DNA from: Christiangramia gaetbulicola
Lineage (GTDB): Bacteria; Bacteroidota; Bacteroidia; Flavobacteriales; Flavobacteriaceae
Direction: 5' to 3'
DNA length: 64,000 nt
Assembly (NCBI RefSeq): GCF_003054225.1
Contig: NZ_QBKQ01000002.1
Location: 558,001-622,000 of the forward strand
Shown: positions 14,701 through 63,683 of the stretch, one piece after another
Position numbering within the stretch: position 1 is the first letter of the stretch
Layout of the letters: every line of letters starts with the position of its first letter
The notes under the pieces: generated by a model
What the model was told of the DNA's origin: nothing
What the model saw: the letters and a program-made list of their open reading frames with translations, nothing else
The model's database searches: none
Program-made: the position numbers and the translations under genes

Positions 14701-15052
14701 ATGACCTGCTCCCCTCTGCTCCAGAGGATTCAGTAATATCTTCAAACTTGAAATTCCCTTTATTGAGATAAAGCTTGTTCTTCTTTCTATTCGCCGTCAA
14801 ATAAACATCTGGCAAGCCATCATTATTTAGATCACCAATTCCTACTCCTCCCCCGTTGTAAAAATTTCTATAATTGAAAATATTGAAATCCTTCTCGTTT
14901 TCAACCTTATTGATGAAATCTATTCCTGTAGAGTCTGAAGGCATTTCAGTGAAAAGTAAGTCTTCAGCCGGCTGCGCCTCTGTTTGCTCCTTATCCTTTC
15001 CGCAGGAAACTGCTAAAAGAACCAATAATATTTTAAAAGTCTTTTTAATCAT
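11744..15052 (-). CDS. FG-GAP/VCBS repeat lipoprotein with ASPIC/UnbV domain (CRTAC1 family), paralogue 2
   Basis: 1,102 residues, collinear with its two neighbours over the whole length. Lipobox LAVSC, Cys17. Two sets of FG-GAP repeats (for example DLNNDGLPD, DYDADGDLD, DIDNDGDMD) flank an ASPIC/UnbV domain (GRF-like GSIIDLYANG and QIIFPDKKR). Start ATG at 15052 overlaps the stop of the upstream paralogue by 8 bp (ATGATTAA). Probably anchored in the outer membrane and displayed with the SusC/SusD pair. No catalytic residues recognised. Confidence 0.88.
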   Translation of the reverse strand: MIKKTFKILLVLLAVSCGKDKEQTEAQPAEDLLFTEMPSDSTGIDFINKVENEKDFNIFNYRNFYNGGGVGIGDLNNDGLPDVYLTANRKKNKLYLNKGNFKFEDITESSGAEGSRSWSTGVTMVDINADGFLDIYVCNAGNLEGDDKKNELFINNGDLTFTEKAAEYNLDDSGFGTHAAFFDYDADGDLDVYILNNSFIPVSSLGYVNKRETRSEDWDIPEPLKGGGDKLLRNDDGRFTDVSEEAGIYGSLIGFGLGVTIGDINGDILPDIYVSNDFYERDYLYINQGDGTFKEQIKDYMQHLSLSSMGADMADLNNDGLPEIFVTDMLPEDDARLKETGDYERYDLFQLKKSRDFYNQYMQNTLQLNNGDGTFSEIAHFSGVAKTDWSWGALLFDMDNDGYRDIFVSNGIFHDLTNNDFMDFFANDIIQKMSITGKKEDIDKVINKMPSTPIPNYAFKNGQDLVFENKAEEWGLDDPGFSNGAAYADLDNDGDLDLIVNNFNMPAFVYKNNSERYDKNFIKLKVKGEGKNTMAVGSIIDLYANGEIIRQELIPTRGFQSSVDYVQTIGLGDKEKIDSVQIIFPDKKRMLVKDPELNSTLVLDQSKANMEWSKSKEDKTTWFQEVATNFEPQSEDRHVDFDYEGLIPKMQSQEGPAMAVADIDNDGNDDVYLGGSFGTSGRIYLQKKAGELKQIAFDAGVNFEDTDAEFVDIDGDNDLDLLVSSGGNFKNARTGLRVYINNGNLEFSDYRIVSYSPNNTSNVETADIDNDGDMDIFLGVYTVPGIYGLKVSSVLLENDGKGEFKDITESAAPGLKNIGMVKAAVFEDLNGDGQKDLTVVGEWMSPKIFLNEKGNFILKENELSEYSGLYNSVLAQDLNNDGFPDLVLGNRGSNASYQASKTEPAKMFVTDFDLNGTTEQVFTKTINGRDIPLHTKRELAGQIVSIKKQNMKFSEYSNKSIQELFGADILEKAEVSVIHNFKSIVAYNDGNANFRIEALPAQAQYSCICSINTGDFNKDGKQDLILAGNNYSLKPQFGRLDASFGTILLNDQNGFKVAESEDSGLLLKGEVKAMKWLKDKNGNEYLLAGITNAKPKLFKRNE

Positions 15053-18000: not shown

Positions 18001-18341
18001 GAAGTTTTTTGAAGAATTCCGGCAGTTTTAGAAACTTCGTTGAACTTAAAATCACCCTGGTTGAGATACAGTTTATCGCTATCCATATTAGCTGCGAAAT
18101 AAAGATCTGTAAGTCCATCATTATTAAAATCGGCCGCGGCTACACCAGCGCCATTATAGAAATAAAGGTAATTCAGGATATTGAGATCTTTAGAAGAAGT
18201 GATCTCATTCCTGAAATCTATGCCGCTTACTTCTGAAGGGAGCATTTGAAACCTGAAATTCTCATCTTTTGGAGTTTCCTTTGAACAGGAGAAAATTAGG
18301 AATAGAAAACACAATAATAAAACCAGTCTTTTCAATATCAA
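15045..18341 (-). CDS. FG-GAP/VCBS repeat lipoprotein with ASPIC/UnbV domain (CRTAC1 family), paralogue 3
   Basis: 1,098 residues. Lipobox LIFSC, Cys19. Same order of domains as the two following paralogues: N-terminal FG-GAP propeller with Asp-rich calcium loops (DFNNDGLTD, DYDLDGDLD, DLNNDGYPD), ASPIC/UnbV domain (ISWPGGFQQRL) near the middle, second repeat set at the C-terminus (DFDSDGDMD, DMDNDGLTD). It is the first of the three in transcription order, 80 bp after susD-like; a terminator hairpin sits in that gap, so expression may be lower than that of SusC/SusD. Confidence 0.88.
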   Translation of the reverse strand: MILKRLVLLLCFLFLIFSCSKETPKDENFRFQMLPSEVSGIDFRNEITSSKDLNILNYLYFYNGAGVAAADFNNDGLTDLYFAANMDSDKLYLNQGDFKFNEVSKTAGILQKTSWSNGVTTVDINNDGLLDIYVCEVGNYKSLKGRNKLYINQGQDADGTPIFKEEAAKYNLDFSGMSTQSAFFDYDLDGDLDVFIMNHSVHPNSNYGIGETRKETDSISGDRLFRNDNGSFTDVSKESGIYSSKIGYGLGLAIGDLNNDGYPDIYVGNDFFENDYLYINQKDGTFKDHISLENSGIAHTSHYSMGVDIADFNNDGLQDIISLDMLPEDLTTYKASGTDYSYQIYHNYLNKGYANQYMQNALQLNQGNFNFSEIAHLSGIAATEWSWAPLFADLDNDGVKDLFISNGILGATNDMDYISFIANENIQKRLSKGMNDQDLKIIDEIPEKRTANYFFRNAGELQFENMDSKWINSEESFSNGAVYADLDNDGDLDLVTNNVNSKASVYENLSRDKDSSHYLQIKFNGPETNKFGIGAKVTLYHGDKIQIAENYPTRGFMSAVAPELHFGLGKLNNIDSIDISWPGGFQQRLRNVKPDQKLQIKFEYANKSSESLDNLRPETEKFLVNKTHKEYSFKDFSYEPLIPYSQSNLGPSVSVIDFNKDGRDDIFISGDQFNPGKMWQQNADGSFGIVKEIQLSSNSLEPVDQVFLDMNNDAALDLIIAYGGTDPNNINKNHPELYLNKNGTLEKTQLLKDVEINASVIRSADFNNDGFEDIFIGSNSDYGSYGKSQDAIILLNENGSGFSKSEASSRSLKDLGMVYDAKIIDMNADGLPDIVIGGHYMPITLLINNGEGGFIKKEIPDTEGWWNSVAIEDFDSDGDMDIIAGNWGLNSRLKASSDSPLQLYLNDFDDNGKVDPILTYFYQDRETPLVTKDEITKQIPQLNKSFLSYTDFAEADFNDYFSEGKIDNAIKKKVVTLETTLFENTGDLQFSKRTLPREVQFSSVHDILLTDMDNDGLTDLVLGGNNYHVNTQLGRLDASKGVILRNKGNLNFELIRNKLYINGPVKSINKVKVLDENYLIFGINNDRTQFVKYPKFND

Positions 18342-18368
18342 CTATTTGGGGTTATGCTGTTATAAATT

Positions 18369-18402
18369 AAAAGCCTTTCCAAATTACGGAAAGGCTTTTA
18401 TT
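18369..18402 (-). terminator. Terminator or attenuator between SusD and the FG-GAP genes
   Basis: Near-perfect inverted repeat AAAAGCCTTTCC / GGAAAGGCTTTT (18369-18380 and 18389-18400) with an 8-nt loop; on the minus strand it is followed by a T-rich stretch. It lies within an otherwise tightly packed operon and could lower transcription of the downstream genes. Confidence 0.8.
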
Positions 18403-18421
18403 TATGAAATACAAAAGCTAA

Positions 18422-19954
18422 TTAATATCCAGGATTCTGGGTTAAATTAGGATTGGTAGACAATGCTGCCGGCGGAATCGGAAACAGTAAATACTGTTCT
18501 GAAGATGCTGGTTTTTCATGATGCGCATCAAGGAATGTAGAGAAACGAATTTGATCATTTCTTCTCCATCCTTCCCAGTACAATTCTCTGGCTCTTTCAT
18601 CAAGGATATCATCTAAGGTTATTCCAGTAAGATCTGAAGTTCCTCTTAAAGTTCTTATAGAATTAACCAAAGATTCCGGAGTATCTCCCATTGTAGCTGA
18701 TCCACCTCTTAAGATCGCTTCAGCCTTCATTAATAAAGCATCAGCTAATCTAAAATGAACATAATCGTTACCTACAGAACCTATGCTAGTAAAGTCAACA
18801 GGATATTTAATTACCCTGATCCCTGCAACCTCGCTAGAGGCAGTAAGAGAAAAGTCTTTAGTAAAGGCTAATGGATCACCGTTTCTATCTTCAAGCGGAG
18901 TACCGTCTGCAGCATATTGCTGACCTAATAAGAATCCTGCATTCATACCAGTATTTCCTTCGAAATAATCTGGAGTGAATTCTCTTCTCATATCTCCATC
19001 TTCATAAAGGTCATATATTTCTGCAAGCGTAACAAAACCATTCCATCCATCAGGCTGGCTATTGTAATGCAGGGTCATATGCCATCTTGAGTGCGTATTG
19101 GCAGGGTTATTACCTCTAACATTCTCACTCACGAATATATTTTCAGAACTATCATCTGTATTCGTTGGAGAGAAATTATCAAAATACATGGTTTCCAATT
19201 CATAATCTCCAGAGCTAACTATCGCATCAACATGAGAGATAACGGTATTCATGTCTCCAGCGTCAAAACTAAATGGACCTGCTGAGGCAGCATTTGTACT
19301 TGGATCTGTTGCCATATATACCGCCTTGTTCAAATAAGCTTTCGCCAGTAAGAAGTGAGCTGCATTTCTATTTGCTACGGTAGCATCTCCAGTATCTGGC
19401 AGATCATCAATGATCTCTTCCAGTTCTGCGATCACGAAATTAATACCTTCAGGTCTGTTTAGAGTAATAGATGGAGGTGCCGTAAGGTCTTCTCCAGGCT
19501 CTCTACCTAAAACCAATCCAAAGTTATCTACTAAGTGAAAAGCGAAAAATGCTCTTAAAAATCTTGCCTGCGCAGCCTGTGCAGGAGTTGGATCAAATTC
19601 CAATACCTGTGTTGAGCGGAATATCCCACTCAATAAACCGGTATAGGCACTATTTATAAAGTTATTAGAACTCGCCCAGTTGTGAGTATGCAGGTTTCTC
19701 CATACACCACCATCATCCCAGTCTGGTCCACGTGTTGGTCCAGCCAACTCATCAGACGTATGCTCTTGCAATGCAAATATATTATCCTGAGTATCAAAGA
19801 TTCTCATTGCCTGGTAGGCCGATATGAGCAGTGACTCTGTATCTGCAGTAGTAGCAGCAACTTCGCTGCCAACTGTATCGTTCAATTCTTCATCCAGGGT
19901 AGTACACCCGAATGCAAGAACGCTAACGAATAAAATTAATACTATTTTTTTCAT
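18422..19954 (-). CDS. SusD/RagB family nutrient-binding outer-membrane lipoprotein
   Basis: 510 residues. Lipobox LAFGC with Cys17. The SusD pattern is clear: helical TPR-like N-terminal part (TADTESLLISAYQAMR), mid region RFLRAFFAFHLVDNFG typical of SusD, and C-terminal RARELYWEGWRRNDQIRFSTF followed by LLFPIPPAALSTNPNLTQNPGY, a hallmark ending. SusD proteins bind ligand on the cell surface and form a lid on the SusC barrel. It lies 12 bp after the SusC gene. Substrate cannot be read from the sequence; no glycoside hydrolase gene is in the operon. Confidence 0.95.
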   Translation of the reverse strand: MKKIVLILFVSVLAFGCTTLDEELNDTVGSEVAATTADTESLLISAYQAMRIFDTQDNIFALQEHTSDELAGPTRGPDWDDGGVWRNLHTHNWASSNNFINSAYTGLLSGIFRSTQVLEFDPTPAQAAQARFLRAFFAFHLVDNFGLVLGREPGEDLTAPPSITLNRPEGINFVIAELEEIIDDLPDTGDATVANRNAAHFLLAKAYLNKAVYMATDPSTNAASAGPFSFDAGDMNTVISHVDAIVSSGDYELETMYFDNFSPTNTDDSSENIFVSENVRGNNPANTHSRWHMTLHYNSQPDGWNGFVTLAEIYDLYEDGDMRREFTPDYFEGNTGMNAGFLLGQQYAADGTPLEDRNGDPLAFTKDFSLTASSEVAGIRVIKYPVDFTSIGSVGNDYVHFRLADALLMKAEAILRGGSATMGDTPESLVNSIRTLRGTSDLTGITLDDILDERARELYWEGWRRNDQIRFSTFLDAHHEKPASSEQYLLFPIPPAALSTNPNLTQNPGY

Positions 19955-19966
19955 AAGAATATTTTA

Positions 19967-22900
19967 TTAAAAGTTTGCATTTATCCCTACCGTAAAGCTT
20001 CTGCTTCTTGGATAGGAAGTATAATCTATACCAAAAGATGGAACCCCGTCAATAGCTTTATTCACATTCACCTCTGGGTCAAATCCATCATAAGGTGTAA
20101 TTACAAAAAGGTTCTGTCCCGCAACATATATACGTAAAGATTTCATCCATTCCAGAGAAAAGTCTTCCTGCCCCATAAAGGTATAACCAATAGAAGCACT
20201 ATTAAGTCTCAAGAAGTCCCCGCTTTGTAGATCTTTCGTAGATAGGAATGGTCCTCCATTTGCAGCATCGGCATTCGAATTAACCTCTGCGTAAGTGGCA
20301 TTATCTCCATTGGCAACTGCTGCTTTATAGAATAATGCTGCATTGGTGTTATCGTATACCTGATGACCATATGCACCGTTTAGATTTGCACTGAAATCGA
20401 AATTTCTAAAAGTTGCATTCAAACCAATACCTAAAGTAATATCAGGGTTTGGATCACCTACGAAATCCCTATCTGATGTTCTTCCAGGACCATCAAAGTT
20501 AGGATTTACCGTGCCATCACCATTTACATCTACGTAAGTTGGTGCCCCGTTCGCGTCATATCCATTAAATACTGGAAGGTAAAAAGCATATAGAGGTTGG
20601 TTGTCATAAAGTAACTGTGATCTTTGTCCAGTTAAACTTCTACCATTAACCTCCCCGGTTGGTATACCAATAGGGAACTGATTACTTACATTACTAATGG
20701 TGTTATCAAGAAATGCCATGTTATATGACACATCAAATGTCCAGTCTTCACTTTGAATAACATTAGCATTTAAAGAGATCTCAAAACCTTCGTTCTCAAT
20801 TTCGATATCATCAAAGTTTGTCCAGTAATTTACGTTTGGAGCCGGCTGAATCGCTGGCAATCTAAATAAAAGATCATTAGTTTTTCTATTGAAGTAATCT
20901 AAAGATCCTGTAATTCTATCACTAGCAAATCCAAAATCTATACCTACACCAAATTGCTCGGTAGTTTCCCATTGTAGATCAGGGTTTGCTACGTTAACCT
21001 GTTGTACTGCTGAACCATCATCTGTAGGACCAAACTGAGTTTGTGCAGAACCAGCAGGGAATTCCTGGTTACCAGTGATACCCCAGCTACCTCTTAACTT
21101 AAGATCTGAAATAGCAACAGGTAAGAATCCTTCTTCAACAATTCTCCAGGCAGCACCTACAGAAGGGAAATAACCATATCTGTTGTTACTACCAAACTTA
21201 CTGGAACCATCGGCTCTTAAAGTAGCTGTTAATAAATATTTGCTGTTATAATTGAAGTTCGCTCTACCAAAGAAAGACTGTAACTCTGAAGATGGATTAT
21301 AGTATGCCAGCACATCGGTTGGCTGGATAGTAGCTGCATAACCAATATCCTTAATATACTTATCCTGATCTGCAATACTGAAGTCACGAGCAATTAAACT
21401 ATTCCCTTTAGCTTCGAAACTCTGATAAGAATAACCAACAACAGCATCCAGTTTTAGGTTTGCTGCGATATCTGAATTGTAGCTTAAGGTATGCTCGAAT
21501 AATTTATTGAAGTTATAGTTATCCTCGTAAGAAGCTACTCCTCGTCCTAAAATGTTATTAGCATTAAAATCACTAGAAATAGAAGTTCTTCTGGTAGACT
21601 CACTTCTGTCTAGACCAATATTGAATTTATAATCCAGTCCTTCCGTAATATTTATTGTAGTAGAAAGGTTTGCAAGAATCCTTGATGTTTCTGTTTTATC
21701 TTCAAAATAATCAAGGAAAGCCTGAGGGTTTCTCTGGTTATCACTTGGCTGGTTATAAGTGCCGTCCTCATTAAAGAATGGTCTGGTTGGATTCCATCTT
21801 AGAGTTGAAGACATTAAATCCCCCTCTGCAGAAGCATTCTCAAAGATCGCTTCTCCATCATCCTTAATATAGGAATAGATGATATTAGACTTAAAAGTAA
21901 CCACATCATCAAAAGCACGTTGAGTAATATTGATATTACCAGTATACTTTTCCTGACCTGTACCTTTTACAATACCTTCCTGATCAAGGATACCAAGGGA
22001 AATTCTATAATTCCCGGTCTCTCCTCCAGAACCATATGAAAAATCATGTTGTTGAGTAAAGGCAGTTCTTAAAATTGAACCTAATGGATCTAAACGAGCT
22101 CCAAGGTCCGGATTCGGGTTACCAACGCTGTTGGCTATCCCTGGATAGTCATCTGCCGAAATCAGATCATATTCATTAGAGATTGTGCTGGACTGGAAAG
22201 ATGAATTAAAACTCACCTGCGGCTTACCGCTTCTTCCACCACGAGTTGTGATCAAAACAACACCATTAGCACCACGGGAACCATAGATTGCCGTCGCCGA
22301 TGCATCTTTCAAAATATCGATACTGGCGATATCACTAGAGTTTATAAACGCCAAAGGGTTGGTAGAACCTCTTCTCCCAAGCCCGGTATCACTTCCTGGA
22401 CTAACATTTCCTCCACTTAAAGGAACACCATCAACAACGATCAAAGGATCGTTTCCGGCCCTTATCGAGGAGGTACCTCTTACTCTAATATTGGCACCAG
22501 CTCCAGGTTCACCACTGGCCTGGGTGATCTGAACACCTGCTACCCTACCTTGTAATAACTGGTCTGGGGAAGTGTTTATACCCTTGTTAAATTCTTCAGA
22601 TTTAACTGACGATACAGCTCCGGTTGCATCCCGCACTGTTGTTTGACCATAACCAATCAATACAACTTCATCAAGTTCAGAAGCATCGGTTGCCAGGTTT
22701 ACGTCAATTGTAGTTCTGCCTTCAACAGGGACTTCCTGGGTTTCGTAACCTACGAAACTAAATACAAGAGTTCCATCTGCCGGTACATCGTTAAGTGTGT
22801 AATTTCCGTCAAAATCTGTTGTAGTTCCTGTCGAGGTTCCTTTAATTGCCACGGTCGCGCCGGGTAGCGGACCAGTCTCATCGGTCACCGTCCCGGTCAC

Positions 22901-22978
22901 CGTCTGCTGTGCATTTACCATCCCATAAAAAAGGAAGACCGAAATAAACAATAGGCCCCTAAAGATAATTTGTTTCAT
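19967..22978 (-). CDS. SusC/RagA family TonB-linked outer-membrane transporter
   Basis: 1,003 residues. Signal peptide ending near residue 24 (MVNAQQ). A carboxypeptidase-regulatory-like domain (TVTGTVTDETGPLPGATV) at about 25-100, then a plug domain (LLQGRVAGVQITQASGEPGAGANIRVRG), then a long barrel ending in an aromatic residue (VGINANF). It imports a ligand of medium size across the outer membrane using TonB energy, with SusD as partner. First gene of the long minus-strand operon; 304 bp of non-coding DNA precede it. No adjacent hybrid two-component system or sigma/anti-sigma pair was seen, so its regulator is likely elsewhere. Confidence 0.95.
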   Translation of the reverse strand: MKQIIFRGLLFISVFLFYGMVNAQQTVTGTVTDETGPLPGATVAIKGTSTGTTTDFDGNYTLNDVPADGTLVFSFVGYETQEVPVEGRTTIDVNLATDASELDEVVLIGYGQTTVRDATGAVSSVKSEEFNKGINTSPDQLLQGRVAGVQITQASGEPGAGANIRVRGTSSIRAGNDPLIVVDGVPLSGGNVSPGSDTGLGRRGSTNPLAFINSSDIASIDILKDASATAIYGSRGANGVVLITTRGGRSGKPQVSFNSSFQSSTISNEYDLISADDYPGIANSVGNPNPDLGARLDPLGSILRTAFTQQHDFSYGSGGETGNYRISLGILDQEGIVKGTGQEKYTGNINITQRAFDDVVTFKSNIIYSYIKDDGEAIFENASAEGDLMSSTLRWNPTRPFFNEDGTYNQPSDNQRNPQAFLDYFEDKTETSRILANLSTTINITEGLDYKFNIGLDRSESTRRTSISSDFNANNILGRGVASYEDNYNFNKLFEHTLSYNSDIAANLKLDAVVGYSYQSFEAKGNSLIARDFSIADQDKYIKDIGYAATIQPTDVLAYYNPSSELQSFFGRANFNYNSKYLLTATLRADGSSKFGSNNRYGYFPSVGAAWRIVEEGFLPVAISDLKLRGSWGITGNQEFPAGSAQTQFGPTDDGSAVQQVNVANPDLQWETTEQFGVGIDFGFASDRITGSLDYFNRKTNDLLFRLPAIQPAPNVNYWTNFDDIEIENEGFEISLNANVIQSEDWTFDVSYNMAFLDNTISNVSNQFPIGIPTGEVNGRSLTGQRSQLLYDNQPLYAFYLPVFNGYDANGAPTYVDVNGDGTVNPNFDGPGRTSDRDFVGDPNPDITLGIGLNATFRNFDFSANLNGAYGHQVYDNTNAALFYKAAVANGDNATYAEVNSNADAANGGPFLSTKDLQSGDFLRLNSASIGYTFMGQEDFSLEWMKSLRIYVAGQNLFVITPYDGFDPEVNVNKAIDGVPSFGIDYTSYPRSRSFTVGINANF

Positions 22979-34714: not shown

Positions 34715-35473
34715 TCATTGATCCAGCCACGTCTTGAAGTCCTTAACCCTTTCCCTGCTTACGATAAGCTGGAATTCGCTAAAGTTTTCTAATTTTATTT
34801 CCAGCCTGGAATTCGTATAAGAAACGATGTCTCGAATCGCATTTATATTAAGGATACACTTTCTATTGATGCGGTAAAATTTTTCCGGATTAAGATCATC
34901 TTCCAATTGTTCCAAAGGAATATCTATGGGATAATTCCGGCCCGAGTAGCAATGAATATAGGTAGCCTTATTTTCAGAATAGAAACAGGCTATATCTGAA
35001 ACTTCTACAAGTTTAAGGTGCTGACCTACCTGGGCGGTGAACCTTGTTTTATAGGCTTTATCGTTAGTACTCTGAGTTAATAAAGACCTTAACTCATTCA
35101 TATTAATATTGTCTTTTTGCTGCTGAGTATTCCTGAATTTGCTAATAGCAGCCTCAAGTTCCTCCTGATCTATAGGCTTCAATAGGTAATCTATACTATT
35201 CAGTTTAAACGCCTTCAGGGCATATTCGTCGTATGCAGTGGTAAAAATGATAGCGCTATTGATCTTTACATGTTCAAAAATTTCAAAAGAAAGACCATCG
35301 CTTAACTGTATATCAAGAAAAATAAGGTCTGGGTGCTTGTTGTTATTAAACCAATCGATGGCTTCAGCAACAGAATGCAGCATGATCTGGGTCTCAATAT
35401 TCATTTTTGTAAGCATGCGCTGTAGTCTTCTTGCCGCAGGCTTTTCGTCTTCAATAATTATAATATCAATCAC
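34715..35473 (-). CDS. LytTR-family response regulator
   Basis: 252 residues. Receiver domain with acidic pair EDE (8-10), phospho-acceptor Asp54 (LIFLDIQL), TTAYDEYAL and YLLKPID Lys. The C-terminal LytTR DNA-binding domain is complete (FTAQVGQHLKLVEVSDIACF, FYRINRKCILNINAI). Last gene of the kinase operon, 22 bp after the 2TM gene. LytTR proteins bind direct repeats about 21 bp apart; such repeats occur in front of this operon, the TonB receptor at 40519 and the DUF2141 gene at 53425, so those are its proposed targets. Confidence 0.94.
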   Translation of the reverse strand: MIDIIIIEDEKPAARRLQRMLTKMNIETQIMLHSVAEAIDWFNNNKHPDLIFLDIQLSDGLSFEIFEHVKINSAIIFTTAYDEYALKAFKLNSIDYLLKPIDQEELEAAISKFRNTQQQKDNINMNELRSLLTQSTNDKAYKTRFTAQVGQHLKLVEVSDIACFYSENKATYIHCYSGRNYPIDIPLEQLEDDLNPEKFYRINRKCILNINAIRDIVSYTNSRLEIKLENFSEFQLIVSRERVKDFKTWLDQ

Positions 35474-35495: not shown

Positions 35496-35810
35496 TTATT
35501 TCCAGATCTGTTTCTTATCCTTATCCATGATCTCTTTGATCTTCTTTTCTTCCCATTTTTTTCCGAAGATAAAATTAGGCCCGAAAACACTCGCCCAGTG
35601 AGCAAAGAGACCTATTCCCCAGAAAAATAAAGTGGAGTAATTTGAAAGATCGCTAAGACCTTCAAAAAAGCCAGTGTTCTGGGTATTTAAAATTAAAATC
35701 GCGGCATTAATAAAAATATAGATGAGCAGGTGTACATAAAATCCCTTAATGTCCTTGATCCTTTTTTGAGCCGTTTTATAGCTCATGCTTTTCTTATAAT
35801 CTGTTTCCAT
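35496..35810 (-). CDS. 2TM domain-containing small membrane protein
   Basis: About 104 residues from the ATG at 35810, which overlaps the kinase stop by 1 bp (TAATG). An in-frame ATG at 35819 would add three residues and is less likely because METDYKK matches METND in the fused copy. Two hydrophobic segments (FYVHLLIYIFINAAILIL, STLFFWGIGLFAHWASVF), then FIFGKKWEEKKIKEIMDKD, the usual ending of the 2TM domain. It is a paralogue of the C-terminal 98 residues of the kinase. Function unknown; may form a membrane sensor with the kinase. Confidence 0.87.
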   Translation of the reverse strand: METDYKKSMSYKTAQKRIKDIKGFYVHLLIYIFINAAILILNTQNTGFFEGLSDLSNYSTLFFWGIGLFAHWASVFGPNFIFGKKWEEKKIKEIMDKDKKQIWK

Positions 35811-37156
35811 TATTTCCATGATCTTTTTTGTTGCTGGTCTTTTTCCATCAGTTCCCTGATCTTACGCTCTTCCCACTCACTTCCATAACCGAATACTGAA
35901 AATCCATGAATGGTAAGTCCTATACCCCATCCAAATAAAGGAAACCAGAACCATTGAAATTCCCAGTAAGTATAGTAATTAATAAAAATAAGAAAAGGTA
36001 TTACCACACAGTAGGAAATAAGATTTCCATAAAATTCCTTGATCTCCTTTACTCTTTGTTTTGCCTTGAAATAGGCATTTTCCTGATTGATGTCGTTCGT
36101 TTCCATAATTGAAATTTGTTTGGTTAAAACGGGTAATTTTACCCGGAATATATCTTTGGTTTGTTCGATGAGTACCTGTCTTTCAGTCACCTCGTGGTAC
36201 CTGTTTACTATATTTTGAAGCCCTACTCCTTTTCTTCCGCTTAAAACCTCCTTCTTCTGAAAATTATTTTCAACCACCAAATAGCCATCAGCTTCATAGA
36301 TCCTTATTTTAAGTGGCTTGGCCTCGCTTACAATATTATGCTTGATGGTATTCTCCAGAAGAAGCTGAAGTGAAAGCGGTACCACCTTGGCTTCCTCATT
36401 AGAAAGTTCTTCAGGAATTTCAAAATAAATACTGTTCTCAAAGCGCATTTTCAGCAGCTTCATATAGGTATTGGCAAAGGCGAGTTCTTCTTTTACACTC
36501 ACCAATACCTTATTTTTTTGCTCCAGAACATACCGGTATATTTTAGATAATGCGGTGGTAAAATTTTGTGCCTGTTCTGGGTTTTCATCAATTAGAGATG
36601 CCAGTACATTCAGGCTGTTAAAAAGAAAGTGTGGATCTAACTGATTTTTTAAGGCGTCGAATTTTGCTGAAGCTGCGCCAGCAATGATCTTCTGCTCCTT
36701 TACTTTTTTATCCTGCCTGTGCTTGTAAAAATTAAAAATATAGAATATACCCCCGGTCACTAAGGTGATCACCAGAGAGACCCAGTAAAAAGAGATCTTC
36801 TCACCCTCAATAAATTGACTTAAGCTCCATCCATTATTTCTGTAAGCCCAGTAATAACGCAGCAGGAAGATGGTAAGTAAACTTAAAAAAACCGAAATTA
36901 TGATCGTGACGGCGAGGTTCTCTGGTTTAAAAAACTCCTTTTTATATTTCTTTGAGAAATAGATGAACATACAAGCGTTAACCAGGTATATTGAAACACT
37001 ATACGAAAGGTTTACAACATAATCTTCCCAAAGCTCTTTGTCAAGCCCTATATCATAGCCCTGAAAAATATATATCAGGAGGAACACCGCAAAAATCGAA
37101 TTTCCAACAATAAATGCTTTGCCAAGCTCCTTTAAAATAACTTTTAATAAGTCCAT
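35810..37156 (-). CDS. LytS-type sensor histidine kinase with fused C-terminal 2TM domain
   Basis: 448 residues. Four membrane segments in the first 145 residues, then the short HisKA domain with LDPHFLFNSLN (His176), a HATPase region with LLLENTIKHNI and GVGLQNIVNRY, ending near 345. Residues 351-448 are a complete 2TM domain (METNDINQ to SWK). The join, just before Met351, looks like a former intergenic leader. Kinase for the LytTR regulator at 34715. Its start overlaps the TPR gene stop by 1 bp. Ligand unknown. Confidence 0.92.
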   Translation of the reverse strand: MDLLKVILKELGKAFIVGNSIFAVFLLIYIFQGYDIGLDKELWEDYVVNLSYSVSIYLVNACMFIYFSKKYKKEFFKPENLAVTIIISVFLSLLTIFLLRYYWAYRNNGWSLSQFIEGEKISFYWVSLVITLVTGGIFYIFNFYKHRQDKKVKEQKIIAGAASAKFDALKNQLDPHFLFNSLNVLASLIDENPEQAQNFTTALSKIYRYVLEQKNKVLVSVKEELAFANTYMKLLKMRFENSIYFEIPEELSNEEAKVVPLSLQLLLENTIKHNIVSEAKPLKIRIYEADGYLVVENNFQKKEVLSGRKGVGLQNIVNRYHEVTERQVLIEQTKDIFRVKLPVLTKQISIMETNDINQENAYFKAKQRVKEIKEFYGNLISYCVVIPFLIFINYYTYWEFQWFWFPLFGWGIGLTIHGFSVFGYGSEWEERKIRELMEKDQQQKRSWK

Positions 37157-37785
37157 TATTTTTTACAATTATTTGCCAGGATCATTTTCGCACGTTCCTG
37201 ACCCCAGTCTGGGAAAAATTCTGCTTCTGGTTTAAAATTAGAGAAAAGTTCCAAACTATGTTCTATTTCTGGACAGTACTTCCCGGGATCCTCTCCAAAG
37301 AACCGAGCAGAACCCATATCCCACTCGGCTTTTGAAAATATTACTCGTGGATTTTCCGGAGCCAGTTCTAAGGCTTTTCGGTAAATTTCGTTGATGGTGC
37401 CGGAGAGTTTCATTCCGTAGACAGATGGATCCAGAGTGATATAAGAAGTATATAACAAGGCCTGTAATACCATAACTTCTGCATTATCCTTTTCTGAATA
37501 CTGTTTTGCTTGGTCCAGTATTTCCTGGGCTTTTTCTAATTTTCGCTCCTTTAAAACCGGGTCTGCCATATCAAAACTTCCTATGATCTGAAGCTGAGCA
37601 GCATAATAATAAGGTAACCAGTTGTTCTTTTCGGCGCTTCCAATTCTTTCAAAGAGATTAGCGGCTTCGGCAGAATCACCCTTACCCCAAAGCTCGAATG
37701 CCTTGTTCATGCCAATTTGATAAGAATTCTGGGCATTTAAACCCATCCCAAGTGTTACTAACAGTAGTGTATAAATTAATTTCAT
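37156..37785 (-). CDS. Exported TPR-like protein
   Basis: 209 residues. Signal peptide ending near AQN (residue 19-21), then helical repeats of TPR character (YQIGMNKAFELWGKGDSAEAANLFERIG, EIYRKALELAPENPRVIFSKAEW). Two cysteines (KYCPEIEHS and NNCKK) could form a disulfide. Lies between DUF2141 and the kinase gene in one operon (gaps 11 bp and a 1-bp overlap). Role unknown; a periplasmic partner of the receptor or the kinase is possible. Confidence 0.8.
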   Translation of the reverse strand: MKLIYTLLLVTLGMGLNAQNSYQIGMNKAFELWGKGDSAEAANLFERIGSAEKNNWLPYYYAAQLQIIGSFDMADPVLKERKLEKAQEILDQAKQYSEKDNAEVMVLQALLYTSYITLDPSVYGMKLSGTINEIYRKALELAPENPRVIFSKAEWDMGSARFFGEDPGKYCPEIEHSLELFSNFKPEAEFFPDWGQERAKMILANNCKK

Positions 37786-37796
37786 TTCAGGCTGAT

Positions 37797-38213
37797 TTAA
37801 TAAATTGTGATATTCTGAATTTCCTTCGACTTATTCTTAAGGATGAATTTAGCGTCCTGCCATTTTGGAGGTCCAAATTTTGCCGGAGCGTTATTGGAAC
37901 TGGCATAATCTTCTGAGGGATAAAACCCTAAGATCATATCGAATTCGCCATCATTATCCTCATCGTGAAATGCTGAAATTGCATATTCCCCGTCTGGAAG
38001 GTCTTCAAAAGTAGCCGTAGCCCTGTTATTAATAATTTCAGATTTATGGCCTTTGTAGATTTGTTTCAGCCAGTTGGTTTCTGAATCATAAAGACCAATT
38101 AAAGCAGCGCCTTTATTTGAGTTGAAACCCGTGATGGTTACTTCCACCGAATTCTGCGCAATTAGAAACTGCGAAAAAAAGCTGACAAGAAGACTAATTA
38201 ATATTGTTTTCAT
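37797..38213 (-). CDS. DUF2141 domain-containing exported protein, copy 1
   Basis: 138 residues. Signal peptide ending near QFLIAQN, then a beta-sandwich DUF2141 domain (VEVTITGFNSNKGAALIGLYDSE, LPDGEYAISAFHDEDNDGEFDMILGFYPSEDYASSNN). About a third identical to the second DUF2141 gene at 53425, with the same length. First gene of the operon that ends with the LytTR regulator, and preceded by the shared repeat operator at 38275-38303. Function unknown. Confidence 0.88.
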   Translation of the reverse strand: MKTILISLLVSFFSQFLIAQNSVEVTITGFNSNKGAALIGLYDSETNWLKQIYKGHKSEIINNRATATFEDLPDGEYAISAFHDEDNDGEFDMILGFYPSEDYASSNNAPAKFGPPKWQDAKFILKNKSKEIQNITIY

Positions 38214-38233: not shown

Positions 38234-38303
38234 CAAAAGTGCATCCTTTTATAGCTTTATTAAAAACCTATATACCGAACTGTAATTTTTTATGGATGAA
38301 TTG
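38234..38303 (-). promoter_or_regulatory. Proposed LytTR operator and promoter before the DUF2141 copy 1 operon
   Basis: On the coding (minus) strand: distal half-site CAATTCAT (38303-38296, degenerate), proximal half-site CAGTTCGG (38282-38275), both in phase 21 bp apart, then 33 bp, then CACTTTTG (38241-38234) in the -7 position, 20 bp before the start codon. The arrangement is the same as at 40542-40611 and 53329-53398. Confidence 0.6.
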
Positions 38304-38362: not shown

Positions 38363-40519
38363 TTAAAGATTATCCAGCTGATTTGTATTCTTGTTGGTAC
38401 TGATAGTCCAGAAAAAACCAACAAAGAAAAACCTGTCTGCAGCCTGACGAATAGCGCGGGAAGAAAAAGTTCCATCGTTACCAGGGGTATTACTGTACTG
38501 GTAGCCAAAAATATTATCTCTTCCCAGAATATTGGAAACAGAGAAATAAAGGATCTTTTGTTGCGATATCAAATAGGCAATATTGAAACTCAAATTATGA
38601 TAATCGGGAGTTTTTTCATTTAAAAAACCAGTGGTATTAGGATCTTCAAAAGGTCGCCCTGAAGCATAATTATAAGAAAAACCTAGCTGGCTCTTTAGAT
38701 CTTCGATCCAGTACTTGGTAACCAGACTAGCCGAATGCGTAGCCACAAAATTGGGCGTGGCTTTTTCAGGAAAATCGCGATAATCCCTTTTTGAATCTAT
38801 ATAGCTGTAAGAAAACCAGTATTCCAGATTTTCGATCGATTTATTGTCACGGTAAAAAAGATCGATCCCTTTAGCATAACCCTCGCCGCTATTTGAAAAA
38901 TCTGAATACACGAAATCTTCGGTATTACTAAATTTGATGAGATCACGATATTCTTTATAATAAACTTCGGTTCTGAAGGTATACCCCGGCCTGGTAAATT
39001 GATAGTTCAATAGATAATGGGAAGCTTTTTCAGGTGCTATATCATTCCTGAACTTTAAATATTCAGGCAGGCCGTTTTGATGAAAATCCCCGTAAGCGGC
39101 AGAAAATTGGCTATGGTCGGCCACTTTCCATGCCATCGCGAGACGTGGAGATAAAATAAAGGATTCACTTGCCTGCAGATATGAAAATCGCAGTCCTGGT
39201 TTCAATGCGAATTTCTTACCGAAATTAATGTCTGATTCCAGGAAACCTGCGGCAATATTATTATTGAACTTACTCTGAATATTAACCATATCTTCAGTAT
39301 AATCTTCCTTAAAATCTGTCGCCAGGTATTCCAGTCCTGAATAGAACTTCAACCTATTATTATACTTTTTAGATACTTTCAGTTTTAAATGAGCTGCTTT
39401 CTCATTATCAACTATGTTAGTTTCATCGATTTCTATATTGTTTTTACTATACGATAAGCTTAACCCAGGCATTATTTGCCAGCCGTTACCAAGATGCCCA
39501 TGATAGGAAGCATTGGAGTAAAGATTGGTGTTCCCCAAATCCAATAAATTTGTATCCTTCAAATTCTCATCTGGCTGGAATAATTCAAAATTCGTATGTT
39601 CAATTGCAGTATAGAATTTAAATAGTCCGTTTTGAAACTGACGGCGATAAACAGTTTCACCGGCAACTGACTCATAGGGTTTCTGAAAGTTATACCCCTC
39701 ATTATTCGGAATGAGTTCCTGGTATGGTTTGAGATTGATATAAGTAAGGTTTAAAGATACAGAGCTGCTATCCCATTTTTTAGTATGGCCTATACCTCCA
39801 CCTACGGTCATTATAGAAATATCGGTCTGGTCCTGTACCGGCTCATTAATGGTATTTAAAGTTAATACACTGGAAAGTGCCTGCCCGTATTCTGCAGAAT
39901 AAGCTCCGGTGGAAAAGGTGATCCCATCGAACAGGAAGGGTGAATATCGCCCACGAGAAGGCAAATTTGCTGCACTGGCCGTATAAGGCTGGAATACCCG
40001 CAGACCATCAATAAAGATCTGGGTTTCTTCGGCAGTACCACCTCGCACGAACAATCTACCATCTTCCCCTACCCTTTGCGTTCCTGGTAAGGTTTGTAGA
40101 GCTCCGATAAAATCACCGGCTACTCCGGCAGTAGTTACCACATCTAAAGGTTTAAGTACCGATACTCTTGAATTCTCGCCTGCAGAAAAACTTCCTGCAA
40201 CCAGGCTTACCGCATCCAAAGAATTTACATCTTCAAAAAGCCTTATTTCAAGGTTATTCATTTCTTCTACCTTGCTTTCCAATTTGTAACTTTCATAGGC
40301 AATAAAACTCACCATGATAGATTGCAATCCTGTAGATAAAGTGGAAAATTCAAATTTCCCATGTTCATCGGTAGTAGCACCATCATAGGTATTCTCTAAA
40401 TAAACGTTCGCACCTTGCAGAGGATTACCTTTTCTATCTGTTACCATTCCAGATATTTCAGTTTGAGAAAAGCAGAGAGTTAATTTTAGGAATAGTAGCA
40501 GGATAAGAAAAGCTTTCAT
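38363..40519 (-). CDS. TonB-dependent receptor with carboxypeptidase-regulatory-like domain
   Basis: 718 residues. Signal peptide ending near CFSQ, N-terminal regulatory-like domain (TEISGMVTDRKGNPLQGANVYLENT), plug domain (VLKPLDVVTTAGVAGDFIGALQTLPGTQRVGEDGRLFVRGG) and a C-terminal barrel ending in TNKNTNQLDNL after the typical ADRFFFVGFFWTIS. Imports an unknown ligand; no siderophore or vitamin genes are adjacent. Shares its promoter design with DUF2141 copy 1 and copy 2, so receptor and DUF2141 proteins are probably induced together. Confidence 0.93.
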   Translation of the reverse strand: MKAFLILLLFLKLTLCFSQTEISGMVTDRKGNPLQGANVYLENTYDGATTDEHGKFEFSTLSTGLQSIMVSFIAYESYKLESKVEEMNNLEIRLFEDVNSLDAVSLVAGSFSAGENSRVSVLKPLDVVTTAGVAGDFIGALQTLPGTQRVGEDGRLFVRGGTAEETQIFIDGLRVFQPYTASAANLPSRGRYSPFLFDGITFSTGAYSAEYGQALSSVLTLNTINEPVQDQTDISIMTVGGGIGHTKKWDSSSVSLNLTYINLKPYQELIPNNEGYNFQKPYESVAGETVYRRQFQNGLFKFYTAIEHTNFELFQPDENLKDTNLLDLGNTNLYSNASYHGHLGNGWQIMPGLSLSYSKNNIEIDETNIVDNEKAAHLKLKVSKKYNNRLKFYSGLEYLATDFKEDYTEDMVNIQSKFNNNIAAGFLESDINFGKKFALKPGLRFSYLQASESFILSPRLAMAWKVADHSQFSAAYGDFHQNGLPEYLKFRNDIAPEKASHYLLNYQFTRPGYTFRTEVYYKEYRDLIKFSNTEDFVYSDFSNSGEGYAKGIDLFYRDNKSIENLEYWFSYSYIDSKRDYRDFPEKATPNFVATHSASLVTKYWIEDLKSQLGFSYNYASGRPFEDPNTTGFLNEKTPDYHNLSFNIAYLISQQKILYFSVSNILGRDNIFGYQYSNTPGNDGTFSSRAIRQAADRFFFVGFFWTISTNKNTNQLDNL

Positions 40520-40541: not shown

Positions 40542-40611
40542 CAAATATGTACCGAATGCAAAATTTTAAAAAAATCAATATTCCGAATTGTCATTTTTCA
40601 ATTCCGAATTG
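40542..40611 (-). promoter_or_regulatory. Proposed LytTR operator and promoter before the TonB receptor
   Basis: On the coding (minus) strand two identical copies of CAATTCGGAAT begin at 40611 and 40590, 21 bp apart. The -7-like box CATATTTG (40549-40542) follows the proximal CAATTCGG by exactly 33 bp and lies 22 bp before the start codon. A third, partial site (GCATTCGG, 40559-40552) overlaps the region just before the -7 box. Confidence 0.65.
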
Positions 40612-40705: not shown

Positions 40706-41140
40706 ATGACCATTTTTGAAGCCTTAAGACAGGAACACGAAATCCAGAGAGACCTGATTGACAAGTTGATAAAGACCGAAGGAAAAACTGAAGAAAGAAA
40801 GAAGATATTTGAAGATCTTAAACACGAATTAAAGATACACGAGGATGCTGAAGAACGTCATTTTTATGTTCCGTTAATGGAAAAAGACATGACCCAGGAG
40901 AAAGCACGTCATAGTGTGGCAGAACATCATGAAATGGATGAACTTGTAGAAAAGCTGGAAGATACAGAGATGGATGCCTCCAACTGGCTGAAGATCGCCA
41001 AGGACCTGGAACATCAGTTGATCCACCATCTTGATGAAGAGGAACATGAAGTATTCCAGATGGCTGGAAAAGTTCTTACCGAAAAGCAAAAGACAGACCT
41101 TGCTTCAGATTATAATAAAGAGATCAAAAAGAACAGGTAA
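40706..41140 (+). CDS. Hemerythrin domain-containing protein
   Basis: 144 residues, four-helix hemerythrin pattern with di-iron ligands placed as expected: RQEHEIQ, HEDAEERHFY, AEHHEMDE and HHLDEEEHEVF. No signal peptide. Binds oxygen, nitric oxide or iron, or acts as a sensor; the role here is not known. Shares a bidirectional terminator with the convergent NADH dehydrogenase gene. Confidence 0.9.
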   Translation: MTIFEALRQEHEIQRDLIDKLIKTEGKTEERKKIFEDLKHELKIHEDAEERHFYVPLMEKDMTQEKARHSVAEHHEMDELVEKLEDTEMDASNWLKIAKDLEHQLIHHLDEEEHEVFQMAGKVLTEKQKTDLASDYNKEIKKNR

Positions 41141-53328: not shown

Positions 53329-53398
53329 CAATTCGGTTTTAAAATTCTACAGTTCGGTTAAAACTTTTTCCGGAAGCTCTCCTTTGAGCCTAAGTTTG
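53329..53398 (+). promoter_or_regulatory. Proposed LytTR operator and promoter before DUF2141 copy 2
   Basis: Half-sites CAATTCGG (53329-53336) and CAGTTCGG (53350-53357), 21 bp apart, each followed by TT. Then 33 bp and a perfect -7 box TAAGTTTG (53391-53398), 26 bp before the ATG at 53425. The -33 region (CTTTTTC) is poor, as expected for a promoter that needs an activator. Confidence 0.68.
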
Positions 53399-53424: not shown

Positions 53425-53841
53425 ATGAAAACAATTGCCGTACTAGTAGCCATGTTAATAGGAGCCTTGATGCAGGCCCAGACAGAAAATACCGGAACCA
53501 TCAACGCCACCGTCTCTAATGTCATAGGAACTGAAGGAAATGTAAAATTCGGACTCTATTCTGAAGATACCTTTATGAAAACAGCACCAGAATATTCGGT
53601 AAAGGCTGAGATCAAGGACGGGAAGGCCATCGCGAATTTCGAAAATGTACCAGAAGGCACTTACGCTCTTTTAGTTATGCACGATAAGAATGATAACGGT
53701 AAAATGGATTTCGATGCCAACGGTATGCCTGTAGAAAATTATGGTTCCAGTGGAACCGGTATGAGCTATGGTCCTCCAAGTTGGGACCATTCCAAATTCG
53801 AATTCAATGGTGAACAAAAAGAACTGGAAATTAGATTTTAA
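53425..53841 (+). CDS. DUF2141 domain-containing exported protein, copy 2
   Basis: 138 residues. Signal peptide ending near MQAQ, then a DUF2141 domain (TINATVSNVIGTEGNVKFGLYSE, VPEGTYALLVMHDKNDNGKMDFDANGMPVENYGSSG). Paralogue of the gene at 37797 and of the same length. It stands alone between the MoxR operon and oxyR, with its own operator-type promoter and terminator. Function unknown. Confidence 0.88.
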   Translation: MKTIAVLVAMLIGALMQAQTENTGTINATVSNVIGTEGNVKFGLYSEDTFMKTAPEYSVKAEIKDGKAIANFENVPEGTYALLVMHDKNDNGKMDFDANGMPVENYGSSGTGMSYGPPSWDHSKFEFNGEQKELEIRF

Positions 53842-53990: not shown

Positions 53991-54950
53991 ATGACTATTA
54001 CCCAACTCCATTATGTACTTGCGGTCGCAGAACACAAGAATTTCACTAAGGCCGCGCAAAAGGTATTTGTTACCCAGCCTACTTTAAGTATGCAGATCCA
54101 GAAACTGGAGGAGGAACTCGAAGTAACTATTTTTGACCGGACCAAAAAGCCGATCCAGCTTACTGAAGTTGGTGAAAAAATAGTTCAGCAGGCGCGTAAT
54201 ATCGTGAATGAAAGTGACCGCATCCAGGATATCGTAGACCAGCAAAAAGGATTTATAGGAGGTATTTTCAGGCTTGGAGTGATCCCAACGATCATGCCTA
54301 CCTTATTGCCCATGTTCATTGGTAGCTTTATTAAAAAATACCCCAAGGTTAAGCTTAAGATCGAGGAGCTTCACACCGAAGCTATCCTGGAAAAACTCAA
54401 GGAAGGACACCTGGATGCGGCAATTGCAGCTACTCCGCTGGAGGTTGAAGGAATCAAGGAAAATGTGCTTTATTACGAACCATTTGTTCCTTATATCCCA
54501 GGCGACCAGCAAAAGATAGATTCTGAAAAGATAAATGTTGAAGATCTCGACATTAATAAGATCCTTCTTCTTGAAGACGGACATTGTTTCAAAGACGGTA
54601 TCATTAACCTATGCAAGGCTTCCAGGGATTATGGTGATGACCAGCTGCAACTGGAGAGTGGAAGTTTCGAAACGCTTATCAAACTGGCGAACGAAGGGTT
54701 GGGAATGACTCTTCTACCCTATTTGCATACTCTGGATCTAAAAGATTCAGAAAAGAAAAACCTGAAGATGTTCCATGATCCGGTTCCTGCACGCGAAGTA
54801 AGTCTTATTTACAACCGCAGTGAATTGAAAATGCAGATCATTGAAGCCATCAGGAGTACAATCGCCGGAGTGGTTAAAGGAGCGATCACCTTCCAGAATG
54901 TAAAAATTATTAGTCCCCTCAATAAAAAGAAGGAATACGATACAAATTAA
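53991..54950 (+). CDS. oxyR: LysR family hydrogen-peroxide-type regulator OxyR
   Basis: 319 residues. N-terminal winged helix (MTITQLHYVLAVAEHKNFTKAA, TQPTLSMQIQKLEEELEV) and a C-terminal sensor domain. The redox pair is Cys199 and Cys208 within LLLEDGHCFKDGIINLC; both the motif and the numbering equal those of the Escherichia coli protein. It should switch on peroxide defence by forming a disulfide. Its targets are probably elsewhere; no katG or ahpC gene is in the window. Confidence 0.93.
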   Translation: MTITQLHYVLAVAEHKNFTKAAQKVFVTQPTLSMQIQKLEEELEVTIFDRTKKPIQLTEVGEKIVQQARNIVNESDRIQDIVDQQKGFIGGIFRLGVIPTIMPTLLPMFIGSFIKKYPKVKLKIEELHTEAILEKLKEGHLDAAIAATPLEVEGIKENVLYYEPFVPYIPGDQQKIDSEKINVEDLDINKILLLEDGHCFKDGIINLCKASRDYGDDQLQLESGSFETLIKLANEGLGMTLLPYLHTLDLKDSEKKNLKMFHDPVPAREVSLIYNRSELKMQIIEAIRSTIAGVVKGAITFQNVKIISPLNKKKEYDTN

Positions 54951-62275: not shown

Positions 62276-62283
62276 TACCTTTG
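62276..62283 (+). promoter_or_regulatory. Predicted -7 box of the TRIC-family gene
   Basis: TACCTTTG, full match, with TTTCAG 19 bp upstream as a possible -33 element. The in-frame TTG at 62281 lies within this box, so translation should begin at 62290 or 62314. Confidence 0.55.
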
Positions 62284-62289
62284 CCAAGC

Positions 62290-62931
62290 ATGGAATTGAG
62301 TTTGTTCAACATAATGGATATATTGGGAACCATCGCATTCGCTATTTCGGGGGCACTTTCTGCTATGAACCGGCGACTGGATATTTTCGGTATTTTTATT
62401 ATTGCCTTTGTTACCGCCATTGGTGGCGGTACCATTCGCGATGTGCTTATTGGAAATACCCCGGTGAGCTGGATGGAAAACATCGTTTATGTATATCTTA
62501 TTGGTGTGGTCACCATCTTTGCGATCGTTTTTAGAAATAAACTGAATTATCTCAAAAAATCCCTGTTCCTTTTTGATACCATTGGTCTGGGTGTATTCAC
62601 CATTACCGGTGTGGAGGTGGGTATACAGAACGGACTTGACCCTATAATTTCGGTGGCGCTGGGCGCAATGACCGGAACATTTGGCGGGGTGATAAGGGAT
62701 ATACTCTGTAATGAGATCCCGGTAATATTTCGAAAAGAGATCTATGCCACGGCCTGCCTAATTGGTGCTTTAGCCTATATAATTCTATATAAACTTGAAG
62801 TAGATGCAGATATTATTTACCTCGTTACCTCTCTTACTGTGATAAGTATAAGGCTTATTGTAGTTAAATATCACCTTACCCTGCCTTCCTTTTATCCTGT
62901 TCAACCTAAGAGCAGTGAACGAAGAATGTGA
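62290..62931 (+). CDS. Trimeric intracellular cation (TRIC) channel family protein (YicG-like, UPF0126)
   Basis: 213 residues from ATG 62290 (a start at 62314 is also possible). Two glycine-rich repeats with the family motif: FAISGALSAMNRRLDIFGIFIIAFVTAIGGGTIRDVLIG and FTITGVEVGIQNG... ALGAMTGTFGGVIRDILC. About seven membrane segments. Related bacterial proteins form potassium-permeable channels; function in the cell is unclear. Last residues are polar. Confidence 0.9.
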   Translation: MELSLFNIMDILGTIAFAISGALSAMNRRLDIFGIFIIAFVTAIGGGTIRDVLIGNTPVSWMENIVYVYLIGVVTIFAIVFRNKLNYLKKSLFLFDTIGLGVFTITGVEVGIQNGLDPIISVALGAMTGTFGGVIRDILCNEIPVIFRKEIYATACLIGALAYIILYKLEVDADIIYLVTSLTVISIRLIVVKYHLTLPSFYPVQPKSSERRM

Positions 62932-62984
62932 GACACATATAATTGATTATCAATAGTTTCAGTATCTTTATAAAAATTTACTGG

Positions 62985-63683
62985 ATGGCCGAGGCGGAAA
63001 AAATAATAATAGTCGAAAATGATATTCCCATGGCTGCGAAGTTGTCTCTGCAACTCAACAGGCTTGGTTATAACATTACCGGTATTTTTTCGCGGGCAAA
63101 AGATGCCTTGCATTTTCTTGAGCAGGAAGTTCCAGATCTTATTCTACTCGACGACCAGTTAAAAGGACAATTAAATGGTTTGGAATCCAAAAGGTCTGAA
63201 AGTAAGATCTGCTCTCCGGTTATTTATTTCAACAAGCGTACCGCTGAAACCCTGGATCGTTTATTACCCCGGTCCCTGAAGAATAAAAAAAAGAAAAATT
63301 CTGAACCCGTTGATCCAATTCAACAAAAGCCGGAAAAAGAGGTCTTGAAGAAAAATGAGCATTGTATCCTCAACGACCGAATCTTTGTGCGGCATCATGA
63401 AAAAATGATACGTATTTCCCTGGACGATATACATTATATTGAAGCAGACCGTAATTACTGCAAGGTCTATCTTAAAGATAGAAAATACTTGCTGGTTACC
63501 ACACTCAAAGAAGTAGATGAAAAATTATCTGATAAAAGGTTTCTTAGAATTCATCGCTCTTATATCGTAAATATCTCCCATATAGATGAAATTGGTGGCA
63601 ATCACGTGGTGATCTGTTCACATTCCCTCCCCCTTAGTAAAAATATGCGTCCAGAACTTTTCAAGCACCTACAGGTGATCTAA
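62985..63683 (+). CDS. LytTR DNA-binding protein with shortened receiver domain
   Basis: 232 residues from ATG 62985; a TTG start at 62943 would add 14 unlikely residues. The N-terminal part is a receiver domain with acidic residues (IVENDI) and phospho-acceptor Asp56 (LILLDDQL), but after beta-4 (PVIYFNKRTAETL) the helix 4 to beta-5 part with the conserved Lys-Pro is missing and replaced by a basic linker (KNKKKKNSE). The LytTR domain is complete (HEKMIRISLDDIHYIEADRNY, FLRIHRSYIVNISHID). No kinase gene is adjacent. Confidence 0.88.
   Translation: MAEAEKIIIVENDIPMAAKLSLQLNRLGYNITGIFSRAKDALHFLEQEVPDLILLDDQLKGQLNGLESKRSESKICSPVIYFNKRTAETLDRLLPRSLKNKKKKNSEPVDPIQQKPEKEVLKKNEHCILNDRIFVRHHEKMIRISLDDIHYIEADRNYCKVYLKDRKYLLVTTLKEVDEKLSDKRFLRIHRSYIVNISHIDEIGGNHVVICSHSLPLSKNMRPELFKHLQVI

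Follow-up and report, generated by a model that had tools for sequence, protein, structure and literature searches.

The 70-bp control element in front of a TonB-receptor gene of Christiangramia gaetbulicola is a family-wide LytTR-type operator with a small regulon, of a kind already known from other systems. Across the Flavobacteriaceae the element recurs with the same fixed spacing, before the same kinds of target gene and in the company of a histidine kinase gene. Very probably it acts as the switch of a single, so far unstudied, sensing system. There is good confidence that the element combines a LytTR operator with a Bacteroidota-type promoter, from which the LytTR regulator of the putative operon would activate a small envelope-protein regulon including itself.

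Operators and genes of the window

The window is the whole 64,000-nucleotide stretch of DNA that was analysed, and its features are collected in Table 1. Operators A, B and C show an identical register, namely half-site, 13 bp, half-site, 33 bp and -7-like box. A preliminary description had reported two half-site copies with a 21-bp period and a box 33 bp further on in the TonB receptor promoter, and both copies there indeed read CAATTCGGAAT. The half-site, period and gap that it reported upstream of both DUF2141 genes (38234-38303 and 53329-53398) are likewise read directly from the letters. The distal half of operator B has two mismatches; its degenerate form CAATTCAT is not odd, as across relatives the distal half most often ends in T (63% of 157 distinct sites). 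Operator C lies about 12.7 kb from operator A.

Table 1. Operators, -7-like boxes and associated genes of the window.
Feature	Position	Strand	Description
Operator A	40583..40611	-	CAATTCGG twice (40611-40604 distal, 40590-40583 proximal), 21-bp period; upstream of TonB receptor gene
-7-like box of operator A	40542..40549	-	CATATTTG, N33 after proximal half-site; first base C, consensus T
Operator B	38275..38303	-	CAATTCAT distal, N13, CAGTTCGG proximal; upstream of operon-internal DUF2141 gene
-7-like box of operator B	38234..38241	-	CACTTTTG, 33 bp past operator B
Operator C	53329..53357	+	CAATTCGG distal, N13, CAGTTCGG proximal; upstream of second DUF2141 gene
-7 box of operator C	53391..53398	+	TAAGTTTG, 33 bp past operator C; canonical first base T
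TonB-dependent receptor-like protein, target	38363..40519	-	Pfam: CarboxypepD_reg-like and Plug domains
DUF2141 protein, target	37797..38213	-	Pfam
209-aa TPR-like protein	37156..37785	-	Pfam TPR_19 match below cut-off; name from weak match
Sensor histidine kinase with C-terminal 2TM domain	35810..37156	-	Pfam: His_kinase PF06580, 86.2 bits
Stand-alone 2TM protein	35496..35819	-	Pfam
LytTR response regulator, proposed binder of operators A-C	34715..35473	-	Pfam: receiver and LytTR domain
Second DUF2141 protein, target	53425..53841	+	Pfam

The TonB receptor, DUF2141, TPR-like, histidine kinase-2TM, 2TM and LytTR regulator genes follow each other in this order on one strand, and ORF order together with Pfam confirms the earlier placing of the regulator in one series with the receptor and the first DUF2141 gene. 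Both parts of a two-component system, a receiver domain and a histidine kinase, are found in the series by Pfam. The regulator matches LytTR (PF04397) at 79.1 bits (cut-off 22.6) and Response_reg at 57.8 bits (cut-off 30.2). The closest named homologues of the kinase (59-75% identity) all come from Christiangramia or Gramella. The predicted model of the second DUF2141 protein consists mostly of strands with a mean pLDDT of 88.7. When the DUF2141 sequence was searched against solved structures, a single match at the level of chance was returned (E 0.38). The best structural matches of the model are 9c7u_B (Z 8.5, 88 residues, rmsd 2.6) and the DUF4876 protein 4q1z (Z 8.1); these Z scores are within the commonly occurring range, and therefore no function is assigned from them.

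Among neighbouring genes, a hemerythrin-domain gene (40706-41140, +) is divergent from operator A, and such a gene often adjoins the kinase operon in Christiangramia, across the operator from it. Elsewhere in the window, the region 8470-22978 (-) encodes three proteins in tandem, each about 1100 aa long and containing FG-GAP repeats and an UnbV_ASPIC domain, with SusD-like and TonB-receptor (SusC-like) genes after them, and looks like a nutrient-uptake cassette.

Conservation of the site and its targets

Half-site pairs with at most three mismatches number three in the window against 1.35 expected, which 16 of 100 shuffles reach and which is not significant; the whole genome contains 68 such pairs and the backward control 50. 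Exact pairs occur twice in the 3.64-Mb genome, both in the window, and the backward control has none; the third window site is one of six places in the genome with two mismatches. In a family sample of 149 genomes, drawn evenly from 149 genera, 14 genomes contain exact pairs (16 matches against one in the backward control), and 11 of the 16 are upstream of homologues of window genes. Within the genus, a pair with at most one mismatch is present in 16 of 24 genomes (23 matches listed against one in the control), with 18 of the 23 upstream of such homologues. Ten matches to this simple pattern, five in the family and five in the genus, lie elsewhere and are chance-like. Kinship among the genomes inflates all p-values. 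The genome search and the look at relatives that had been proposed as a check both came out in favour of the pattern: the exact pairs lie only at window targets, and the site is kept upstream of the same genes across the family.

The comparative set comprises the best 80 kinase loci in named genomes, 1.57 Mb in total. Pairs with at most two mismatches number 70 at spacing 13 and no more than 12 at every other spacing from 0 to 40. With the box included, spacings of 13 and 33 give 67 matches, compared to three summed over 288 other spacing pairs. The half-site columns of a profile alone recover 159 sites at a score of at least 16 and none in backward DNA, and at a laxer score of 10 they recover 162 against four. 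The NAnnTTTG box, which the half-site scan does not require, lies 33 bp away at 140 sites, and no other distance is seen more than twice, though the seed sites of the profile did carry a -7 box. The architecture of the pattern first put forward, CARTTCGG-N13-CARTTCGG-N33-YAnnTTTG, stands, with SAnnTTTG as the better form of the box family-wide; in addition, the distal half often ends in AT.

The final profile finds 160 sites, at least one in each of the 80 kinase loci, and 158 of them precede homologues of the TonB receptor (31), DUF2141 (28), TPR (49), kinase (19) or 2TM (31) genes. The following gene was taken from ORFs whose start lies no more than 300 bp before or 420 bp after the proximal half-site, with homologues of window proteins preferred. 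A coding-strand site lies within 4.5 kb upstream of the kinase in 78 of the 80 loci. Downstream of the kinase, many non-Christiangramia Flavobacteriaceae have extra copies of the small 2TM gene. The count of 160 comes from the loci on which the profile was trained, and further loci were therefore checked with the help of R1, a sequence-only profile made from 59 of the 160 sites, none of them from the window (60 were taken at random and one, lacking an identified target, was dropped). In 41 further loci (the 30 best of the family and 11 of the order, found by R1) there are 43 sites, all different from the training sequences, and 41 of the 43 precede such homologues. No site that equals a training sequence occurs in the loci compared from the family (30), the order (11) and a chosen set (20). 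The genus genomes do overlap with the training set, which shares six of the 29 genus sites in identical form.

The 20 chosen stretches were picked from the listed matches unlinked to the kinase and are not a random sample. Seven of them carry the site before a TonB-receptor gene far from the kinase and nine before an unlinked DUF2141 gene. What decides for a regulon is that the site follows these two kinds of gene away from the kinase. Further targets in these stretches are ABC ATPases (two loci), DUF2807/Toastrack proteins (three), an ankyrin protein (one) and, in one locus, two proteins without a Pfam match. Outside the C. gaetbulicola genome, sites also precede TPR, kinase and 2TM genes. 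Within the genus, DUF2306 membrane proteins are targets in two genomes by Pfam (L187 and L190), a third target (L191) begins like the second of these, and a weaker site in another genome precedes a protein similar to the DUF2306 targets, the Pfam run having covered L187 and L190 only. In one genus locus the TonB-receptor homologue is split into two separate ORFs, possibly by a broken gene or a sequence error, and operators precede both this two-piece homologue and the first DUF2141 gene.

In the window, R1 matches operator A (E 1.2e-9) and operator B (E 6.0e-11), and operator C by a partial match only (E 0.0023). The R1 search of the C. gaetbulicola genome does not support a regulon beyond the three promoters: the sole other match at E<1e-3, C1:901534, has no profile site at a score of at least 8. 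No DUF2807 target was seen in this genome, and a search for a homologue of the DUF2306 target gave no match, a result that shows little as the search had no positive control. The suggestion of a small regulon sharing one operator is borne out by these genome-wide and comparative tests.

The site and the kinase occur together. An R1 match at E<=1e-3 is present in 23 of the 24 genus genomes, the exception being a 67% complete genome. Among the matches listed, 19 of the 24 contain an R1 pair 12 to 15 kb apart, and in the loci read one member of the pair precedes the kinase or TonB gene and the other the second DUF2141 gene. In the family sample, R1 reaches E<=1e-4 in 118 of 149 genomes and the kinase E<=1e-60 in 116; site and kinase are both found in 114, the site only in four, the kinase only in two and neither in 29. 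The two kinase-only genomes proved to be threshold misses, as a weaker site precedes either the kinase or the DUF2141 gene next to it. One of the four site-only genomes was inspected: its site lies before DUF2141, and its 14-kb stretch shows no kinase or LytTR gene.

Beyond the family, the site drifts in sequence, and its coupling to the kinase is only partly shown. Among 166 genomes from other families of the order, R1 at E<=1e-5 matches nine, the kinase is found in 27 and both in seven; both site-only genomes proved to be threshold misses, since a diverged kinase gene (36% and 43%) is present on the spot together with a LytTR gene (49-50%). In another family of the order, f5, R1 at the same limit missed 20 of 27 kinase-bearing genomes. 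Thirteen of the 20 were read: eight have a profile site at the lax limit of at least 9 before the kinase or TPR gene, five of these scoring at least 16, three have a drifted pair recognizable by eye (for example CCATTCGG-N13-CCCTTCGG), one has a doubtful pair by eye, and in one the site is absent both at score 9 and by eye. The half-sites of f5 have drifted, and most genomes read retain the 21-bp period upstream of the kinase. The f5 LytTR domain differs at positions that are nearly invariant in Flavobacteriaceae.

Regulator and promoter in the light of known LytTR systems

Described LytTR promoters are autoregulated, and their 9-bp direct repeats are separated by 12 bp (11-13) and in most cases end 10 bp ahead of the -35 element (PMC6193735). 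PlnC and PlnD bind cooperatively to 9-12-9 repeats, of which the promoter-proximal (right) repeat is more conserved (PMC2714321). The assumption that LytTR regulators use direct repeats with a period of about 21 bp agrees with both sources, and the 8-bp cores with N13 correspond to a 12-bp gap between 9-bp repeats when the leading A is included. Adjacency, co-occurrence and geometry support the earlier proposal that the LytTR regulator of the operon is the putative binder.

Similar to the sites of PlnC/PlnD from Lactobacillus plantarum and AgrA from Staphylococcus aureus, the operators are direct repeats immediately upstream of a promoter, and a receiver-LytTR regulator adjoins a kinase gene; PlnC/PlnD also share the 9-bp repeats, the 12-bp distance and the stricter proximal repeat. 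In contrast, the half-site here is ACARTTCGG and that of PlnC/PlnD is TACGTTAAT, and a Bacteroidota-type -7 box, an altered recognition motif, a kinase with a 2TM domain and TonB/DUF2141 targets set this system apart from all three. In LytTR Regulatory Systems (LRS) and the LRS-like operons of Bacteroides, direct repeats likewise precede the operon of the regulator, in most cases with a 12-bp gap and at 10 bp ahead of -35 (PMC6193735). The Bacteroides operons have 11-bp repeats with an 11-bp gap, 11 bp upstream of TGTA-19 bp-TATCTTTG, and their repeats differ in sequence from the operators described here. LRS regulators lack a receiver and LRS membrane proteins lack a kinase domain; membership in LRS is rejected because both are present here.

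The LytTR orthologues share the conserved stretches SENKxTY, F-F/Y-R-h-N/S-R-K, SYTNSRL and V-S/A-RERV. FhRhHRS is the most conserved LytTR motif, from which AgrA departs with FFRCHNS, and R198, N201 and S202 of AgrA touch DNA (PMC4227749). The window regulator has FYRINRK, in which F, R and R are kept. The motif could be aligned in 77 of the 80 family loci, all 18 f5 loci and five of the nine paralogues of the genome. The H position in the 77 family orthologues is S in 44 and N in 32, with one gap, and the S position is K in 71; the 18 f5 orthologues have N and Q at the two positions. The motif is altered, and recognition is therefore not transferable from AgrA. The change is compatible with the changed half-site and the drift in f5, a single family split being weak evidence. 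A sequence search with the LytTR domain alone against solved structures returned only 3d6w (E 0.11) and did not find an AgrA-type structure.

A different regulator may own the operator, either another of the LytTR proteins, for example that at 62943-63683, or the LysR protein at 53991-54950. The genome encodes ten LytTR domains, and the LysR gene adjoins the second DUF2141 gene in Christiangramia and several other genera, which gives this alternative some footing. It is nevertheless improbable. The site occurs with the kinase/LytTR operon and mostly before genes that do not adjoin a LysR gene; LysR proteins usually bind inverted rather than direct repeats, which counts against the LysR protein; and the five alignable paralogues differ from the orthologues by having H and S in the recognition motif. 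A scan of the window found no operator of the studied type near 62943-63683. This second LytTR regulator and the adjoining gene of a Gly_transporter-family membrane protein together occupy 62281-63683 (+).

The sigma-A -7 consensus in Flavobacterium psychrophilum is TAnnTTTG (PMC9723704). Compared to this, the operator-linked boxes keep AnnTTTG at a fixed distance but have the first-base T in only two of 140; the first base is G in 73, C in 61 and A in four, that is, G or C in 134 of 140. Ordinary promoters of the same loci (425 upstream regions, 139 matches) begin with T in 79, A in 34, C in 17 and G in nine. The first bases of boxes A, B and C are C, C and T. Within the genus, T is found in all 14 promoters of the second DUF2141 gene that were examined, while C prevails in the kinase promoters of the genus. 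T is also the first base at several drifted f5 sites. Since operator C and the 14 genus promoters have T, the off-consensus base is not needed for such sites. The simplest reading of the base counts suggests that most operator-linked promoters are weakened and hence dependent on an activator. Further upstream, all 157 distinct sites have a T at profile position 39, which lies 10 bp beyond the right repeat. The T-tract may represent the -33 region, and a fixed -33 element was not seen in ordinary promoters of the same loci.

The positions of these elements bear on a reading in which the LytTR protein of the operon binds the operator as a repressor, so that the genes are on when the regulator leaves. 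PlnD, itself a LytTR protein, represses from the same type of repeat (PMC2714321). Here both half-sites lie upstream of the promoter region and do not overlap it, and most -7 boxes are off consensus, both of which fit an activator; repression is thus improbable, to the same degree as ownership by another regulator. A resemblance by chance, or common descent of neutral DNA, for which it can be said that a three-mismatch half-site pair alone is not rare in window or genome, is refuted by the spacing grid, the backward controls, the R1 matches in 118 of 149 genera and the unlinked copies before the same genes, chance being excluded once the third spacing and the related genomes are added.

Proposed mechanism and meaning

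Activation by the LytTR regulator of the operon is the preferred explanation, and its steps can be outlined as follows. The 70-bp element has the form A-CARTTCRK, 12-bp gap, A-CARTTSGG, about 10 bp, T-tract (putative -33 region), about 20 bp and SAnnTTTG. Most likely, the sensor of an envelope signal is the 2TM histidine kinase (35810-37156), which would then phosphorylate the LytTR regulator (34715-35473). Two regulator molecules would next occupy the half-site pair, just ahead of RNA polymerase, and the bound regulator would activate the TonB receptor and both DUF2141 genes. Through the gene series, if transcribed as an operon, the TPR-like protein, the kinase and the regulator would also be activated, which would constitute positive feedback. 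With a -7 box starting in G or C, the promoter is probably weak without the activator.

The envelope reading draws on Toastrack domains, which are linked to envelope stress systems (PMC11237479); the DUF2807 targets in three family genomes resemble the Lia/PSP-like Toastrack systems of that source and offer a functional hint and not a result. A wider picture is tentative, possible and somewhat short of probable: an old envelope kinase/LytTR system, present in most sampled genera of Flavobacteriaceae, may control TonB-receptor, DUF2141, TPR-like, 2TM and some Toastrack and ABC genes, with most promoters locked by a first -7 base kept at G or C, so that RNA polymerase would work only with the LytTR dimer, and with an altered recognition motif whose changes track the drift of the half-sites between families.

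No description of a flavobacterial LytTR operator was found in the open-access literature, as far as its available texts go. PMC10197871, PMC5395568 and PMC10057207 mention flavobacterial LytTR proteins, and the operon and site studied here are not described in the available parts of these papers; the word LytTR is absent from PMC9723704 and PMC9478572. As far as these searches reach, neither the operator and its regulon nor the altered recognition motif and the frequent off-consensus -7 box have been described.

If the proposed mechanism is true, the family would possess a testable code that names the regulator, its targets and the bases to mutate, and DUF2141 would gain a regulatory context. 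Genetic tools from other bacteria perform poorly in this group (PMC9723704), and the operators would provide native activator-dependent promoters for a group that such tools serve poorly. The frequent departure from the -7 consensus would also offer a concrete and easily tested idea of how such promoters are kept silent.
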